DNA from: Victivallis lenta
GTDB lineage: Bacteria > Verrucomicrobiota > Lentisphaeria > Victivallales > Victivallaceae
Assembly (NCBI RefSeq): GCF_009695545.1
Contig: NZ_VUNS01000013.1
Span: 62,001-126,000, forward strand
Direction: 5' to 3'
DNA: 64,000 bases
Shown here: positions 36,881 through 47,665 of the stretch, one piece after another
Position numbering within the stretch: the stretch's first letter is position 1
Layout: every line of letters starts with the position of its first letter
Notes under the pieces: generated by a model
The model's database searches: none
What the model saw: only the letters and a program-made list of their open reading frames with translations
What the model was told of the DNA's origin: nothing
Translations under genes and position numbers: made by a program

Positions 36881-39800
36881 CTATCGGATTTCATTCTGTT
36901 CTTTCCGGGTGATCAGGCAGGCCATGACGCCGCCGGGGCGCGAAGCGGTATCCGCAGTGAACCGGAGCCGCCCGTCCGTGTACGCCGACGGGATTTCACC
37001 ATTCGGCGTGCCGTCGAGCTTCAATGCTTCGACCCTGCCGCCGGAAGGCAGCGCCAGGGCGACTTCGACCCTTCCTTTTTCAAGCAGCAGCGGCGGTTTT
37101 CCCCAGCTTTCCAGGCGGGAGAGCCGCCCGTCCGAGAATTTCTGCTTCGTCGCGCCGAGGTTGGTCAGGTGAATCAGCAGAATGCGTCCGCTCTCCGCCA
37201 GCGGACGGTTGTCGAGCGACAGCAATGCGACGGTCTGGTAAACCGTTCCGTTCCGCAGTTCGGCAAAAGTTCCGGAAGCTTCGCGGCGGAAGGTGAACAC
37301 TTCGCTTTTCGGCGTGACGACCGACAGCGTTTTCGCCGGCGCATCGAGCGTGATCTCCCCGGTGGCGGAGGTGATCCGGCCGGTCTCCTTCAGCCGTTCG
37401 AGAGCGCTCCGGGCCGCGGCCGGGAGCGCGGACTGCCGGCCGAGGTTCCCCGTCTCCAGCTTCCGGACGCCGGGAAAAGAGGCGGCGGCATTCAGCGTGC
37501 CGATCCGGGCATACAGCCCGAGCAGCGAAAATTCGTCCGGATAATCGGCCGCCTCCCCGAAGTTCTTCACGCCCCGTACCAGTTCCGGCGACCATTCGAA
37601 GGCGAAGGCCGGAGCGGCCGCCTTCACGTCGCCGCGCATGAAAAGCATATGGATGATCCGCTCGGCAAGCTGGCCCTGCGGGTCGTTCACGAGATCGAAC
37701 CCCATCGGCTGCTCCGTCTTTTCCATGTACCGCCGGTCGTGCGACCACGCGAAGCGGTAAAGCCCGTCCCAGTCCTGAAGCCCGGCATAGCCGCCGGCCA
37801 GCGGCGCGGCCTCGACACGCCAGACATTCGGGTTGCAGAAATTGAATTCCGTGACGATATACGGCTTCCCGAAAACGCGCACCGGCATCATATTGCGCGG
37901 CAGGTGCGCCTTCCGGCCGATCGAGGAGCCCTGCGCATAGAGATGGGGCAGCCGCCACGGATTCGCCGCAAAACGCGGATGATCCCAATACTGGTGGTTG
38001 TCGACCAGGTCGAGTCCGCCGCGCATACCGGCGAGCGTGGTTTTGTTCAGGAAGTTCAGGTCGGTCACAAGCGCTGCCATCTTCAGCTCGTCCTTCAGAT
38101 ACCGGCTCTGCTCGGCGATGCATTTTTCCTGAAGAGAGTTCAGGAATTCCAGAAAAAGCCCGCCGCGCGAGGCCCGGTTCTCCGGGGTGTCGAGCTGATT
38201 CCGCTTCAGGTATTCGGCATACTTCGCCTCGTAGACCGGAATCAATTGCGGCCACTCGTCCCAGCATTGGGCGAGAACCGCTTCATTCATCAGGTTCACG
38301 CAGTAAAGCGCCGGGTCTTCGGCGAGTGTCATGCCGGTGTACGGATTCCGGGCGGTCAGCAGCCGCCGCGCAAACTCCTTCCAGTTCGCCATGGCGGTGG
38401 GACTGACCGGGGCGAGCGCCTTCATGGCGAACCGGGTGCGTTCGGGACACTCCGCAATGCCGTCGCCCGGAACCAGCCAGCGGCTCGCGTAAACATCGAG
38501 CGTCAGGTAGATGCCGCGCTTTTTCAGCTCTGCGAACAGATAGAAGAAGCGGTCGAGTTTTTCCGGATCGAAGGTCACGGAATCGGGAGCGCCCGGTTCC
38601 AGCAGCTCATTTTCATAATGGTGGAACCGCACGGTGTTGTAGCCCATCCGGACCGCCTTTTCAACGAATTCATCCGCCGTCTTTTTCGACAGGAAATTCG
38701 AGCTGCCGACGAGGTTCGGGCCGAAGAAGCGAACCCGCTCCCCGGGGCGGTCGCGGAACTCGAAATGCCCCTGCCCCGAGGCGGTGACCGGGCCGTATTT
38801 ACCGGCCGGCGCATCGAGCGCGGCGGAGAAGTCGAGCGGAGAGCCCGGCTCGACCCGGTTGTCGAATTCGAGCGGAATCCACTGTTTCCCGGCAACGTAA
38901 TAGACCGGCGTCTCCAGCTGCCGCAAATCGAGCGCCCGGCTGCCGAAGGTCGCGGCGGCGATCATCCAGAGCGGCGAAACTCCGTTCCGGGACGGCGGAG
39001 CGGCTTCGAACCGCAGAGCAGCCGGAGAACCGGGAAGTTCGAATTGCGACAGATAGAGCCCCACGAACGATTCGGCGTTTTCACCGGTCCAGGCGACGGC
39101 TGCATTCGACAGCGGCGCCGGCTGCCACCAGTTCCCGCAATCCTGACCCGAAAGCACCGGAAATTCGCGTTTCGTGCCGTCGGCATACACCGCGATGATC
39201 TTTCCGACCGGCAGCCGGGGCTGCGGTGTCCAGGCCGACGCATGCAGCAGATACAGGACGCCGCCCCCGTTCACCGGCACATCGGCCGACGCGGGAAACC
39301 TCCCGTCTCCGGCGGAGAGCACGAGGCAGGCTTTTCCGCCGTCTTCCGCGGGATCGGCGATATCGAACGGGGCGCCGAGCACTGTAAGCCGGCCCGGTTT
39401 CATCATCCGCAGGTCGTTCGACGGCCCCTGGTCGGTCCATCCGCCCCGGCCGTCCCCGGCCTCGTCGTCGCGGAACCCCATATTGAAAACGCCCGAAAGG
39501 TTTACCGGCGCGGCACGCAGCGGTTCAACGGTGACCGACAGCTCCAGCTCGGCCGCGCGGAACGGGGAACGGATTCCGGGCGGAAACAGCCGGAACTGGA
39601 TCTCCCCGCTGCCGAACTTGCGGTCGTCCTGAATCAGCAACCCGAAGTCGCCGGAGAACGTCACGAGCCGCCCGCCGAGCACGAGCGAAAGCGACTTCGC
39701 CCGGGCGGCACGGAACAGCTGCGACTCCCGGAACTCCTCCGGGACCTCCACCTTTTTCCCGTCGACCGCGACGCTCCCGGCGCGTCCGGCCGGAGTCGTC

Positions 39801-40165
39801 AGCATCAGCATCAGCGCCTCCCCCTCGACCGGCCCGGAAGCCTCGAGGCGGCTGCGGCAGCGGAACCGCTCCGCCCCCTCCGCCACCGCCGCGGTTTCGA
39901 CCCGGAACCGGGCGGACGTCCACTCTCCGGCGGTACGGAATTCCCCGGCGGCACGCCGTGGATATCCGGCATCCGGCCGGAATTTCGCCGGCTCCATCCG
40001 TTCGGAACGCCAGCCGGGCTTGAACAGGACCCAGCGCATCAGAGCGTCGGAGAACCGGAGGTTCCCGCACGCATCGAACTCCACTCCGGCCGGCAGCAGC
40101 GCGGCAGGCGCCGCCGCCGCGGCCAGCAGCACCAGCATGCCGGCGATCAGTTTCTTATGCATCAT
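36881..40165 (-). CDS. Secreted GH5-like (clan A) glycoside hydrolase, multidomain
   Basis: A 1094-residue protein with a signal peptide (about 1-22, AAAAAPAALLPAG). The first ~480 residues are beta-rich carbohydrate-binding-like domains. A TIM barrel follows (about 510-870) with MGYNTVRFHHYEN, the acid/base Glu628 in VNLMNEAV and the probable nucleophile Glu773 in YIVTEFNF, the order expected for GH5 and relatives. A C-terminal beta domain ends the protein. The substrate is not deducible. ATG 40165 has AGGAA upstream and lies 25 bases after the pseudopilin stop, so the two are co-transcribed. Confidence 0.85.
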   Translation of the reverse strand: MMHKKLIAGMLVLLAAAAAPAALLPAGVEFDACGNLRFSDALMRWVLFKPGWRSERMEPAKFRPDAGYPRRAAGEFRTAGEWTSARFRVETAAVAEGAERFRCRSRLEASGPVEGEALMLMLTTPAGRAGSVAVDGKKVEVPEEFRESQLFRAARAKSLSLVLGGRLVTFSGDFGLLIQDDRKFGSGEIQFRLFPPGIRSPFRAAELELSVTVEPLRAAPVNLSGVFNMGFRDDEAGDGRGGWTDQGPSNDLRMMKPGRLTVLGAPFDIADPAEDGGKACLVLSAGDGRFPASADVPVNGGGVLYLLHASAWTPQPRLPVGKIIAVYADGTKREFPVLSGQDCGNWWQPAPLSNAAVAWTGENAESFVGLYLSQFELPGSPAALRFEAAPPSRNGVSPLWMIAAATFGSRALDLRQLETPVYYVAGKQWIPLEFDNRVEPGSPLDFSAALDAPAGKYGPVTASGQGHFEFRDRPGERVRFFGPNLVGSSNFLSKKTADEFVEKAVRMGYNTVRFHHYENELLEPGAPDSVTFDPEKLDRFFYLFAELKKRGIYLTLDVYASRWLVPGDGIAECPERTRFAMKALAPVSPTAMANWKEFARRLLTARNPYTGMTLAEDPALYCVNLMNEAVLAQCWDEWPQLIPVYEAKYAEYLKRNQLDTPENRASRGGLFLEFLNSLQEKCIAEQSRYLKDELKMAALVTDLNFLNKTTLAGMRGGLDLVDNHQYWDHPRFAANPWRLPHLYAQGSSIGRKAHLPRNMMPVRVFGKPYIVTEFNFCNPNVWRVEAAPLAGGYAGLQDWDGLYRFAWSHDRRYMEKTEQPMGFDLVNDPQGQLAERIIHMLFMRGDVKAAAPAFAFEWSPELVRGVKNFGEAADYPDEFSLLGLYARIGTLNAAASFPGVRKLETGNLGRQSALPAAARSALERLKETGRITSATGEITLDAPAKTLSVVTPKSEVFTFRREASGTFAELRNGTVYQTVALLSLDNRPLAESGRILLIHLTNLGATKQKFSDGRLSRLESWGKPPLLLEKGRVEVALALPSGGRVEALKLDGTPNGEIPSAYTDGRLRFTADTASRPGGVMACLITRKEQNEIR

Positions 40166-40190
40166 CCAGATTTCCTTCCGTTCGATCCGC

Positions 40191-40877
40191 TCACATGCCG
40201 GCATAAAGAAAAGAGCTGCAATACTTTTCGCGCAGAACGCCGTCACCGGCGGAACCGGCGTGGCCGTCCGCCCAGCCGACCACGACATAACTGCCGTGAG
40301 ATGCGGAGAACAATCCTGCCGAATTCCAGGCGTTCGAGAGCGCGTAGAGCAAAGAGAGCATCCTGGTGAGCTCGTTCCTCTGCCGCGTATCCGCGAGGAA
40401 AATGAAGTCGGCGGGGTTCGTGATCCGCGCGATCGTCAGCGTGGTGTTTTTCCCGTCGATGCGGTATCCCGGCGAAGCCGCGCCTCGGACATCGGCGCCG
40501 TCGATTCTCCGGGCGGCGACGTAATTGCAGCCGAACGTCCGGCCGGCGCCTCCGTACGGCTTATCCGATTTTGAGTCGTCGGGGTCCTGCCCGACCTCCG
40601 GGCAGCGCAGACTCCGCAAATCGCCCGCCCTGATGTAACCGCCGTCGATCAGGGAATGGTCCCACTGGTGCGTAGACTCGTTGTTGACCCAGATCGAGCC
40701 GTTGAAATCGTCACAGTACATCTGCACATACAGCATCGACTGCTTCAGGTTGTTCAGACACGCGGTGCCTCTGGCACGGCTGCGGGCCTGGTTCAGCGCC
40801 GGCAGCAGCATGGCGGCGAGAATCGCGATGATCGCAATTACGACCAGCAATTCGATCAGGGTAAAGCGTCTTTTCAT
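40191..40877 (-). CDS. H-X9-DG pseudopilin (type II secretion-like)
   Basis: A 228-residue protein starting [20 protein letters not shown], a prepilin leader with Arg instead of Gly before the methylated Phe, followed by the [17 protein letters not shown] helix and CLNNLKQ. The C-terminal region has the H-X9-DG hallmark in [16 protein letters not shown]. It is the single-leader counterpart of the pseudopilin at 24806-25633, and like it directly precedes a secreted hydrolase. Expected to sit in the inner membrane or a pseudopilus. A strong promoter lies 72 bases upstream. Confidence 0.92.
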
Positions 40878-40948
40878 TGTCGTTCATCCTTCCATAAAAT
40901 TTTGATCCGGGCGGCGGGAACAGGCCGGAATTTTCGTCCGTCACGTTT

Positions 40949-40977
40949 ATTATAGGAAAAAAATCCCCCGCCGTCAA
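40949..40977 (-). promoter_or_regulatory. Near-consensus promoter of the pseudopilin-GH5 operon
   Basis: On the minus strand: TTGACG (40977-40972), 17-base spacer, TATAAT (40954-40949). Diverges from the regulator promoter across an operator-like array. Confidence 0.75.
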
Positions 40978-41007
40978 GATGAAAACCGGAAAAAACGCCT
41001 TGAATCA

Positions 41008-41122
41008 AAATAAGCCGCTTTAAGCCACAAAAAATATTCATCTTTCATTGAAAACCGGTTTAAAGCGAATGAGCGTCGCGCGGCGCATCCAACTTAAAGC
41101 GGCTTATTTCAGTTTAAGCCGG
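41008..41122. promoter_or_regulatory. Operator-like array between divergent promoters
   Basis: A perfect 17-base inverted repeat, AAATAAGCCGCTTTAAG at 41008-41024 and its complement at 41093-41109, plus two related sites GGTTTAAAGCG (41057-41067) and AGTTTAAGCCGG (41111-41122). The shared core is TTTAAGCC or its complement. Their place between the two promoters suggests binding sites for the adjacent GntR-HTH regulator or the IclR-type protein. Confidence 0.6.
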
Positions 41123-41139
41123 ATAACAGCCGATCCGGC

Positions 41140-41168
41140 TTGACATCAGGGGCGGAATCCGGTATAAT
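41140..41168 (+). promoter_or_regulatory. Perfect-consensus sigma70 promoter of the regulator pair
   Basis: TTGACA (41140-41145), exactly 17 bases, TATAAT (41163-41168). The start codon is at 41221. The operator-like site at 41111-41122 sits just upstream of the -35. Confidence 0.85.
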
Positions 41169-41220
41169 AAAAGCGGGAACAGGCTCGGAAAAGCTCCGAA
41201 AAACAGGAAAGTGCCGATCG

Positions 41221-42297
41221 ATGATGAATCTCGAAATCAACACGGCTGTGCCGCACGGAGAACTCGCGCGTTCGCTCGCGGACAAGCTGCGCTTCTACAT
41301 CGCCGACACGCCGGTGCCGGTCGGCGGCCGGCTGCCGTCGAACCGCGAAATCGCGCGAGCCGCGAATGTGAGCCAGGTCACCGCCCGCATGGCGGTGCTC
41401 GCCCTGGCCCGCGAAGGGCTGCTCGAATCCCGGAGCGGCTGCGGAACCTATGTCGTGCGCGCCCCGTCGCAGCTGCCGCTCGCGCGCGGCGGAAAACCGA
41501 AGAAGATCGGCATCGTCCTGTCGCCGTGGGACTCCGAATCCGAGGTCGTCTGGAACAACCGCGACGTGCTCGCCGAAGTCGTCGGCAATGTCAGCGCCGC
41601 CGGAAAACTCACCATCTTCACCTACGAGCAGTGGCTCGAATATGCCGCAGGGGACCCGAACGACATGATCCGCGAAAACGAACTCGATACGCTGGTCTGG
41701 TTCTATGTCGGCTACCGCGAAATCGCATTCGTCGCGCGGCTCGAGCAGCAGGAGTTCCGCCAATTGCTGATCCATCGCCGTCCGTTCGGGCTGCACTCAC
41801 CGGTGATCCGCGGCGACAACGCGGCGGGGATCAACCGGATCTTCGACAGCCTCTCCGCCGGAGAACGCGAACGCCTGCTGATCCTCTCCGGCGACCCGAC
41901 CCAGTCGGTATACAGCACCCACTATGCGGCGATCGCCGAACGGATGGGGCGGGAACCCACCGGGGACGAACTGCTGATCCTGCCGCTGGCTCCGTTCCCG
42001 CGCTGGACGGCGCTGGTCCTGCGCGAGGAGCTGACCCGGCTCCGGCCGCGGGCGGTCATCGACCTGGCCGGTTACATCAATCCGCTCTCGGCGCTGGGAG
42101 AAACGTTCCACCGGTCGATCGGCAGCCCGCGGCTGTTCAGCTTCACGCTGCCGACGGCGTGGCAGGCGGAACATAAGCTGCACTACACCTTTCTCCAGCC
42201 GGAGTGGGGGGCCGCCGCGAAAACGCTGCGGGAGTTCTTTCTGGCGAGGGAGATTCCGGAGACCACCGTGTGGCCGCTGAAGCTGCGGGAGTTCTGA
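41221..42297 (+). CDS. GntR-HTH transcriptional regulator with LacI-type sensor domain
   Basis: A 358-residue regulator. The winged helix (about 10-75) reads GGRLPSNREIARAANVSQVTARMAVLALAREGLLESRSGCGTYV. From about residue 95 a sensor domain begins KKIGIVLSPWDSESEVVWNN and continues with LLILSGDPTQSVYSTHYAAIAERMG, a diverged periplasmic-binding-protein fold. It is divergent from the pseudopilin-GH5 operon across the operator-like array and probably controls both directions. ATG 41221 has AGGAAAG 10 bases upstream. Followed after 4 bases by an IclR-type gene. Confidence 0.87.
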   Translation: MMNLEINTAVPHGELARSLADKLRFYIADTPVPVGGRLPSNREIARAANVSQVTARMAVLALAREGLLESRSGCGTYVVRAPSQLPLARGGKPKKIGIVLSPWDSESEVVWNNRDVLAEVVGNVSAAGKLTIFTYEQWLEYAAGDPNDMIRENELDTLVWFYVGYREIAFVARLEQQEFRQLLIHRRPFGLHSPVIRGDNAAGINRIFDSLSAGERERLLILSGDPTQSVYSTHYAAIAERMGREPTGDELLILPLAPFPRWTALVLREELTRLRPRAVIDLAGYINPLSALGETFHRSIGSPRLFSFTLPTAWQAEHKLHYTFLQPEWGAAAKTLREFFLAREIPETTVWPLKLREF

Positions 42298-42301
42298 ATC
42301 C

Positions 42302-42982
42302 ATGAAAGCCGTTCGGGACGCTCTGGAACTCCTGCTCGCCGTCGCCCGCCGCCGGGACGGTTCCGCCGCCCCTTCCGCGCTGGCGGAAGAGCTCGGGCTC
42401 AACGTCTCGACCGCGCGGCGGCTGCTGCAGGACCTCGCCGATACGGGCTTTATCGAACAGGCGTCCCGGCGCGGCGGCTACCGGCCGGGCCCGTCCGCAG
42501 CCTATCTGTTCGCCGGGAGCCGCTACCGGCCGGAACTTCACGCGGCTTTCGCCGCTCCCCTCGCCGCCTTCGCCGGAAAATTCGGGACGGATGCCTCACT
42601 CTCGGTACGGCTCGGCCCCGGACGGACCGTCCTCCTCGCCTTCGACGGGACGGGCCGCGAGACGACGGCGGAATATCCGCCGCGCATCGACGACCTCTAC
42701 AGCTCGGCGGCGGGGCGGCTGCTCTTCGCCCTGGCCCCCGAAACCCGCCGGGTCCACCTGGTCTGGGAGCTGGGAATTCCGGGCGGAACGGTCTGGCCCG
42801 AGATCGGCGGCGACCGGAGCCGGATCGCCGAGGCGCTTGCCCCGATCCGCCGCGCACGTTTCCTTCGCTACGGCGGGAACTGCGCCGCCGCCGTCGACGA
42901 GGAGACCGTGCTTCTGTGCGGAACCGATTCCGCCGAAGCCGAAGCCGCGCTGCGCGAACTCTCCCGCCTCCCCGGCGCGTGA
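42302..42982 (+). CDS. IclR-family transcriptional regulator
   Basis: A 226-residue protein. The N-terminal winged helix (about 3-62) reads AVRDALELLLAVARRRDGSAAPSALAEELGLNVSTARRLLQDLADTGFIEQ. The C-terminal effector domain (about 80-225) has the IclR landmarks LYSSAAGRLLFALAPE and RFLRYGGNCAAAVDEE. Slightly shorter than usual (about 250). It is encoded 4 bases after another regulator, an uncommon pairing of two unrelated transcription factors in one transcript, and converges on nagA. Confidence 0.87.
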   Translation: MKAVRDALELLLAVARRRDGSAAPSALAEELGLNVSTARRLLQDLADTGFIEQASRRGGYRPGPSAAYLFAGSRYRPELHAAFAAPLAAFAGKFGTDASLSVRLGPGRTVLLAFDGTGRETTAEYPPRIDDLYSSAAGRLLFALAPETRRVHLVWELGIPGGTVWPEIGGDRSRIAEALAPIRRARFLRYGGNCAAAVDEETVLLCGTDSAEAEAALRELSRLPGA

Positions 42983-46687: not shown

Positions 46688-47665
46688 CTAAGTATCCCCG
46701 TCGCGCCGCTCCGGCGCGATCAGAACGCCCTCTTCCCCGTCGTCGCCGCCCTCGAGCATGCGCCCGAGCTTCGCCGCCGCCTCGCGGAACAGCCGGGAGG
46801 GCTCCTGCAGAAAGCTCGTCACTTCAACCCCCCAGACATCCCTGCCGTAGTCGTTGTCGAAGTCGCTGTAAAGCAGCTCCCGCTTCCAGCAGGCCGCGCG
46901 CTCGGCGGCGAACCGCATGACCGCGCCGGTATGGGCGCGGGCATCCGCCACCAGAATCCGCATTTCGCCCGGCGCAACCGGGATTCTCTCGTGCAGCAGC
47001 GCCAGCTTCGCCTCAAACTCCGTCGGCATATGCAGCAGCTCATAGAATCTTCCCTGCTCGCGGCAGGCGTCGACAAAACCGTCGAATCGGTAATCGAGCG
47101 CGAGGGAGTTGAGGGACGAACGCAGAAAAAACACCTTTGCCGCCGGATAAAGCGCCAGCCGCTCCTTCGTGATCGCATGATAAGCGCCGCGGTGATCGGT
47201 CGAAACATATGCGGTTCCGGGATGAACGCGGTTGACCAGCACCTGAGGCAGCTGCCCGCCCACCGCGTCGATGACCGGCAGCAGCTCCGCCTCCGGCCGC
47301 ATCCAGAGCAGCCCGTCGAAGTCGAACAGCCGTTTCCATGCCGATTTCACCTTCAGCTCCGACACCGGAATCACCGTCAGGTCGAAGGGCGTCCCCATAT
47401 CCTCCTCCGGATTGATGCCGCCGATGACCGCCACCCGGCGCCGCCCGACGCCGGAGCCGTTCACATACGTCCCGGAGCCATGCCGCCCGATCAGCACTCC
47501 GTCGCTCATCAGCTCGCGGATCGCCCGGTCCAGCGTCGCCCGCGCCACTCCGAACTCCCGCATCAGCTCAAGGCGCGGAGGCAGCGCCGAATCCGGCACA
47601 TAGATTCCCTCCCTCACCCGCCGCGTCAATTCCCGCGCAATCTCCCGAAACGGCTGTTGGCGCAT
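46688..47665 (-). CDS. GntR-HTH transcriptional regulator of the amino-sugar operon
   Basis: A 325-residue regulator with a winged helix at about 5-68 (FREIARELTRRVREGIYVPDSALPPRLELMREFGVARATLDRAIRELMSDGVLIGRHGSGTYV) and a sensor domain from about 75 (RRRVAVIGGINPEEDMGTPFDLTVI) with the fold of LacI-type binding proteins. It is the third chimeric regulator of this architecture in the window. It is the first gene of the operon with the two oxidoreductases, nagB and nagA. A promoter overlapped by an inverted repeat suggests autoregulation. Confidence 0.9.
   Translation of the reverse strand: MRQQPFREIARELTRRVREGIYVPDSALPPRLELMREFGVARATLDRAIRELMSDGVLIGRHGSGTYVNGSGVGRRRVAVIGGINPEEDMGTPFDLTVIPVSELKVKSAWKRLFDFDGLLWMRPEAELLPVIDAVGGQLPQVLVNRVHPGTAYVSTDHRGAYHAITKERLALYPAAKVFFLRSSLNSLALDYRFDGFVDACREQGRFYELLHMPTEFEAKLALLHERIPVAPGEMRILVADARAHTGAVMRFAAERAACWKRELLYSDFDNDYGRDVWGVEVTSFLQEPSRLFREAAAKLGRMLEGGDDGEEGVLIAPERRDGDT

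Follow-up and report, generated by a model that had tools for sequence, protein, structure and literature searches.

A predicted direct-repeat operator module, mirrored before two divergent operons of Victivallis lenta

Introduction

What is the use of two exact inverted copies of one sequence between two divergent operons? The question is raised by a 64-kb window of the Victivallis lenta genome (the window being the whole stretch of DNA that was analysed), in which the intergenic region 40878-41220 is flanked on one side by minus-strand genes for a pseudopilin-like protein and a large probable hydrolase, and on the other by plus-strand genes for a GntR-type and an IclR-type regulator. In a preliminary description the copies were taken for an operator array, at which a repression loop might hold two very strong promoters in check and so work as a switch.

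The present genome, of Victivallis type, contains about a hundred GntR-type regulators, many of them beside a pseudopilin gene, and in the limited open literature we found no described operator for any Victivallis GntR regulator. The present locus gives one testable predicted operator with a conserved geometry, which related gut bacteria share, among them V. vadensis DSM 14823, a type strain that can be cultured. What looks like an inverted-repeat operator array may be simply two one-sided modules facing apart, and this is the reading that we favour, with rather more confidence than doubt: two mirrored and independent promoter-operator modules, putatively bound by the GntR-type protein, presumably in response to a sugar-like ligand, and likely working by class-I-like activation.

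Results

Genes and promoters on the two sides

The divergent operon on the minus strand begins with the gene of a pseudopilin-like protein (40191-40877; a weak N_methyl match), followed by that of a large secreted protein (36881-40171) which is probably a glycoside hydrolase, being weakly GH5-like with a PF00150 match of 2.4e-4, below cut-off. On the plus strand, the gene at 41221-42297 encodes a regulator of 358 aa, which belongs to the GntR family by its winged HTH at residues 16-78 (PF00392, 3.8e-12; 46.1 bits against a cut-off of 27) and carries a LacI-like sensor domain behind it. The AlphaFold model (pLDDT 80.8) is matched in Foldseek by CelR, by the LacI family and by the AraR sensor 3tb6 at E of about 1e-7, and a LacI/periplasmic-binding-type sensor behind a GntR HTH is the architecture of the AraR-like subgroup, which the protein, as modelled, shares. 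Downstream of it lies an IclR-type regulator gene (42302-42982, plus strand), whose product has an IclR HTH by PF09339 (2.5e-8; 34 bits against a cut-off of 22).

Each operon is preceded by a promoter very near to consensus, and both promoters are as they had been described: TTGACG-17-TATAAT at 40949-40977 on the minus strand for the pilin-hydrolase operon (11 of 12 positions) and TTGACA-17-TATAAT at 41140-41168 on the plus strand for the regulator genes (12 of 12). No other promoter-like site in the 64-kb window reaches 11 of 12.

The inverted 17-mer and the direct repeat

The reverse complement of the 17-mer AAATAAGCCGCTTTAAG (41008-41024) is found without mismatch at 41093-41109; the two starts are 85 nt apart, and the pair as first reported is thus confirmed. 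No longer perfect inverted repeat without overlap exists in the intergenic region, and 500 dinucleotide shuffles gave at most 13 nt. The 13-mer core AAGCCGCTTTAAG occurs exactly twice in the genome of 5,545,070 bases, both times in the 41008-41109 pair, and the genome scan that had been proposed for the core in this 5.5-Mb genome hence gave no exact copy beyond the locus; with one mismatch it is found at five other places. When the intergenic region was used as the query of a DNA search, no other genome matched.

A different picture of the repeat is obtained by comparison with relatives. Among 137 genomes searched in the order Victivallales, seven others carry an orthologue of the GntR-type gene; one is V. 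vadensis DSM 14823 (G007, 65% identical), and the remaining six come from uncultured members of this order, two of which bear the label Victivallis sp. With their upstream regions aligned on the promoters, the ten modules of the eight genomes all contain one conserved block, GYGRCTTAWWGYGRCTTA, which consists of two units in the same orientation with a 10-bp period; same-orientation units at constant spacing, conserved in orthologues, make it a direct repeat. At the present locus the operator core (boxes 1 and 2) of the pilin-hydrolase promoter is GTGGCTTAAAGCGGCTTA, at 41011-41028 on the minus strand and without mismatch to the block, and that of the regulator promoter is CCAACTTAAAGCGGCTTA, at 41089-41106 on the plus strand and with two mismatches. 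The 17-mer is accordingly not the whole of the predicted operator; it spans most of the two-unit 10-bp repeat. A palindromic operator was considered and rejected, the core having no conserved dyad (G005 and G003 read CTTATTGCGRCTTA).

The block is fixed relative to the promoter. In 10/10 modules its first CTTA precedes the -35 hexamer by 46-48 nt, and in both modules of this locus by 47 nt; the distance from the start of the 17-mer to the -35 hexamer is likewise 47 nt on both sides, each strand read outwards. The minus and plus modules align without gaps, and outside operator and promoter they have no obvious similarity. Given the equal distances and the gap-free alignment, the pair looks like two outward-facing copies of one promoter-operator unit. 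Averaged over all pairs of modules, identity reaches 0.75 within the block and 0.88 within either promoter hexamer; it is 0.45 immediately behind the -10, 0.27 in the upstream flank, 0.33 in the spacer and 0.35 in the promoter spacer. As all eight genomes belong to a single order, the position lock is partly shared history, and despite this kinship the spacers have diverged to near background.

Matches to GYGRCTTAWWGYGRCTTA with at most one mismatch occur only at this locus across the eight genomes. A wide regulon was also sought in these genomes, and the total of matches did not exceed that of a reversed-pattern control, with no excess elsewhere; we therefore regard the block as a local operator and not as the mark of a global regulon. 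Nor is the design repeated at other GntR genes of this genome, where a direct repeat at p<0.05 was found in only 3.6% of 55 paralogue promoters, which is the chance level. The related TTTAAGC-type sites of the preliminary description are both present: that at 41113-41121 gives the plus module its third box, and the other, TTTAAAGCGA at 41059-41068 between the two modules, is a single weak unit resembling one operator unit without a second. The upstream region of a second GntR-type regulator gene in the window (46688-47665, minus strand), located beside oxidoreductase and sugar-isomerase genes, is without the GYGRCTTAWWGYGRCTTA repeat.

Gene order in relatives and the loop

The number of modules follows the gene order. 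In V. vadensis the whole block of genes is syntenic (pilin 40%, hydrolase 54% and IclR-type protein 54% identical), and there, as in the present genome, regulator and pilin genes diverge and two modules are found, one per promoter. In the other six genomes (G003, G005, G046 and G093-G095) the regulator gene runs in the same direction as the pilin gene, and as a hydrolase gene where the contig allows, and there is one module; all six lack an IclR gene at the locus. The inverted repeat would thus follow from the divergence of the two operons, each of which requires a site to itself. A survey covering GntR regulons has described divergent pairs with two sites, one for each operon (PMC4494728).

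These facts bear directly on the repression loop, in which regulators bound to the two inverted sites would join over a distance of about eight helical turns and silence both promoters. What speaks for it is the two identical sites themselves, in opposite orientation and 85 nt apart. However, the six genomes with a single site have no loop partner to offer, the two copies in V. vadensis differ, so that perfect identity is not conserved, and the V. vadensis sites are 3 bp further apart (85 nt against 82 nt here, measured from start to start of equivalent 14-mers). Each of them stands 47 nt from its own -35, as here; with the distance between sites changing by 3 bp and that between site and promoter constant, a phased repression loop is not supported, and selection appears to hold each site to its own promoter and not the sites to each other. 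In addition, about 85 bp is short and stiff for a loop, and the other divergent GntR-pilin pairs of this genome have no inverted repeat longer than 9 nt. We hence consider the loop very unlikely, and of the control region first proposed we retain the operators for the adjacent regulator, conserved in seven other genomes, without the loop and its helical phasing. A sugar-sensing regulator and hydrolase genes are probably controlled here in a conventional on/off manner, and not by a special DNA-looping switch.

The hydrolases next to the regulator are of other kinds in the relatives, GH2-type in G005 and G094 and GH39/42-like in G003; the regulator therefore keeps the type of its neighbourhood and not an exact target enzyme. 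Comparison of these loci (L017, L018 and L119) with 36881-40171 of the window suggests that target enzymes have been exchanged behind a conserved regulator and a predicted operator. In G046 (L019:1-1300) an in-frame stop and a change of frame break up the GntR orthologue, either as a recent pseudogene or through an assembly error, and the operator with a full-consensus promoter is still there.

The third box and the IclR-type regulator

The plus module has a third box, TTTAAGCCG at 41113-41121 on the plus strand, which also forms an inverted-repeat pair with box 2, and in the minus module TTCAAGGCG at 40996-41004 on the minus strand matches it at 7 of 9 positions at the fixed +20 position. In all 4 modules of the two IclR-bearing genomes box 3 is exactly 20 nt after the first CTTA. 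The agreement with TTTAAGCCG, itself defined on one of the four modules scored and compared in two closely related genomes, is 9, 7, 7 and 7 of 9 where the IclR gene is present, and at most 4/9 in the six modules without the gene. A terminator-like match at 41121..41100 was rejected: it is box 2 pairing with box 3, and 1.5 such matches are expected by chance.

From this co-occurrence one might take the IclR-type protein 42302-42982 as the main binder, with box 1 as an external direct repeat and boxes 2-3 as the palindrome, or let it share the operator through box 3. The sites of PcaU, PobR and HmgR are of that layout, a palindrome with an external direct half-site (PMC8222616), and boxes 1-3 resemble them; the sequence here, however, is not of their GTNCG-N5-6-CGNAC type, and boxes 1-2 are found also where an IclR gene is missing. 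The genomes that bear the IclR gene are two close relatives, and at the loci of other IclR paralogues the box-3 motif is matched at chance level only. As boxes 1-2 are conserved in genomes lacking the IclR gene at the locus, we think it decidedly improbable that this protein is the main binder. Box 3 may belong to the IclR protein, or it may serve the GntR protein as a third box. A composite operator of two co-transcribed regulators, with the GntR/LacI-sensor protein on the two direct boxes and the IclR protein on an overlapping inverted box 3, we regard as rather doubtful; if it were true, the operator would be a position-locked, polymerase-contacting switch with two inputs, mirrored before both divergent operons, and box 3 would have arisen when the IclR gene joined the locus.

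Discussion

The putative binder and the sign of regulation

On the sequence evidence, the likely binder of the direct repeat is the GntR-HTH/LacI-sensor protein 41221-42297. Its gene is the only regulator gene common to all loci with the block, and in six genomes the site is present at a locus that lacks an IclR gene, which leaves the GntR protein as the shared factor. All 8 GntR-type orthologues carry an unchanged recognition helix, VSQVTARMAV, which is found in none of the 99 paralogues of this genome, the best of which agrees at 7/10; upstream of the more distant relative G369, with the helix VSRVTARLAI, there is no such repeat. GntR-family operators are mostly palindromes and the LacI-type sensor is usually a head-to-head dimer, and both points count against a direct-repeat model.

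In the mechanism that we propose, each module consists of the 10-bp tandem direct repeat GYGRCTTAWWGYGRCTTA, then about 33 nt, and then a near-consensus sigma-70 promoter. The 41221-42297 regulator would occupy both units of the repeat, about one turn apart on the same helix face, and, bound there, would contact RNA polymerase in class-I-like activation; its targets, switched according to a sugar-like ligand, would be the regulator gene pair to which it belongs and, across the intergenic region, the pilin-hydrolase operon. We infer the transcription start, as also the protein that binds, the ligand and the sign of regulation, and with that start the block spans about -86 to -69 in the usual numbering, its centre near -77. 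A site near -77 that is locked in position and clear of the promoter is rather what one expects of a regulator contacting RNA polymerase, and the lock within 1 bp relative to the -35, together with the upstream position, favours such a contact and activation. Against this, a promoter of full consensus should need little activation, and for the sign of regulation as such we put activation at about even chances.

The same regulator on the same upstream repeats could also repress each promoter independently, without any loop, by overstabilising or trapping the polymerase, by blocking its alpha subunit, or by spreading from boxes 1-2 towards the -35. Promoters near consensus suit a repressor, weak further TTTA units follow at 10-bp steps in some modules, and the position lock could also reflect a repressor that works via polymerase contact. 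Among the GntR-family proteins on direct repeats there are also repressors such as NanR, whose sites, however, lie in the promoter region, downstream of the polymerase-binding site (PMC8012715). The sites here do not overlap the promoter, and a distance locked at 46-48 nt is not required for simple occlusion; we thus hold local repression, its several routes taken together, to be possible but the less probable reading. The earlier argument that strong promoters imply tight repression is weak, for 55/99 of the other GntR-type genes of the genome have an upstream promoter of at least 10/12 without this operator, and promoter strength here is therefore no sign of this operator.

Relation to known GntR-family systems

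AraR of Bacillus subtilis is a repressor with palindromic operators. The protein 41221-42297 is like it in having a GntR HTH and a LacI-type sensor, with the AraR sensor 3tb6 among the top fold matches and the DNA-binding domain matched by sequence, and in the setting of a gene, here presumably autoregulated, beside carbohydrate genes; it differs in its conserved element, a direct repeat of 10-bp period that lies at about -77 and lacks GT..AC symmetry. For want of a palindromic GT-AC operator we do not file the protein as an AraR member. In the limited open literature we found no report of a direct-repeat operator for the AraR-like architecture.

Direct-repeat operators as such are already known in the family, among NanR, FarR, NagQ and MocR types, and the one predicted here is a modest variant. 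A tandem direct repeat is read by the GntR-type HTH of NanR (PMC8012715), and the FarR operator unit, TGTATTAWTT, is of 10 bp (PMC4494728) as is the unit here. NanR, FarR and NagQ thus resemble the present case in the recognition of tandem direct repeats by GntR-type HTHs, but they use other sequences and FadR- or HutC-type sensors, and NanR is a blocking repressor. For MocR-type operators two direct boxes plus one inverted box are the commonest layout, and of the MocR regulators (GabR, TauR and PdxR) several are activators, PdxR working on divergent genes (PMC5320631). The GntR HTH and direct-box operators are shared with them; the aminotransferase-like sensor of MocR is absent, and as the C-terminal domain is LacI-like and the protein has only 358 aa, we do not assign it to that type.

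Some features of the genome at large may be added. Its GntR-type HTH matches number 100 and its pilin-like N-termini at least 150, and a pilin-like gene lies within the roughly 3 kb examined in 44/99 GntR genes, mostly co-directional and about 1.1 kb downstream; a regulator-pilin(-hydrolase) arrangement looks like a repeated cassette in this genome. Near-consensus promoters of the form TTGACA-17-(T/C)ATAAT are frequent before its GntR genes, often with upstream A/T tracts and with CTC or CTA directly before TTGACA.
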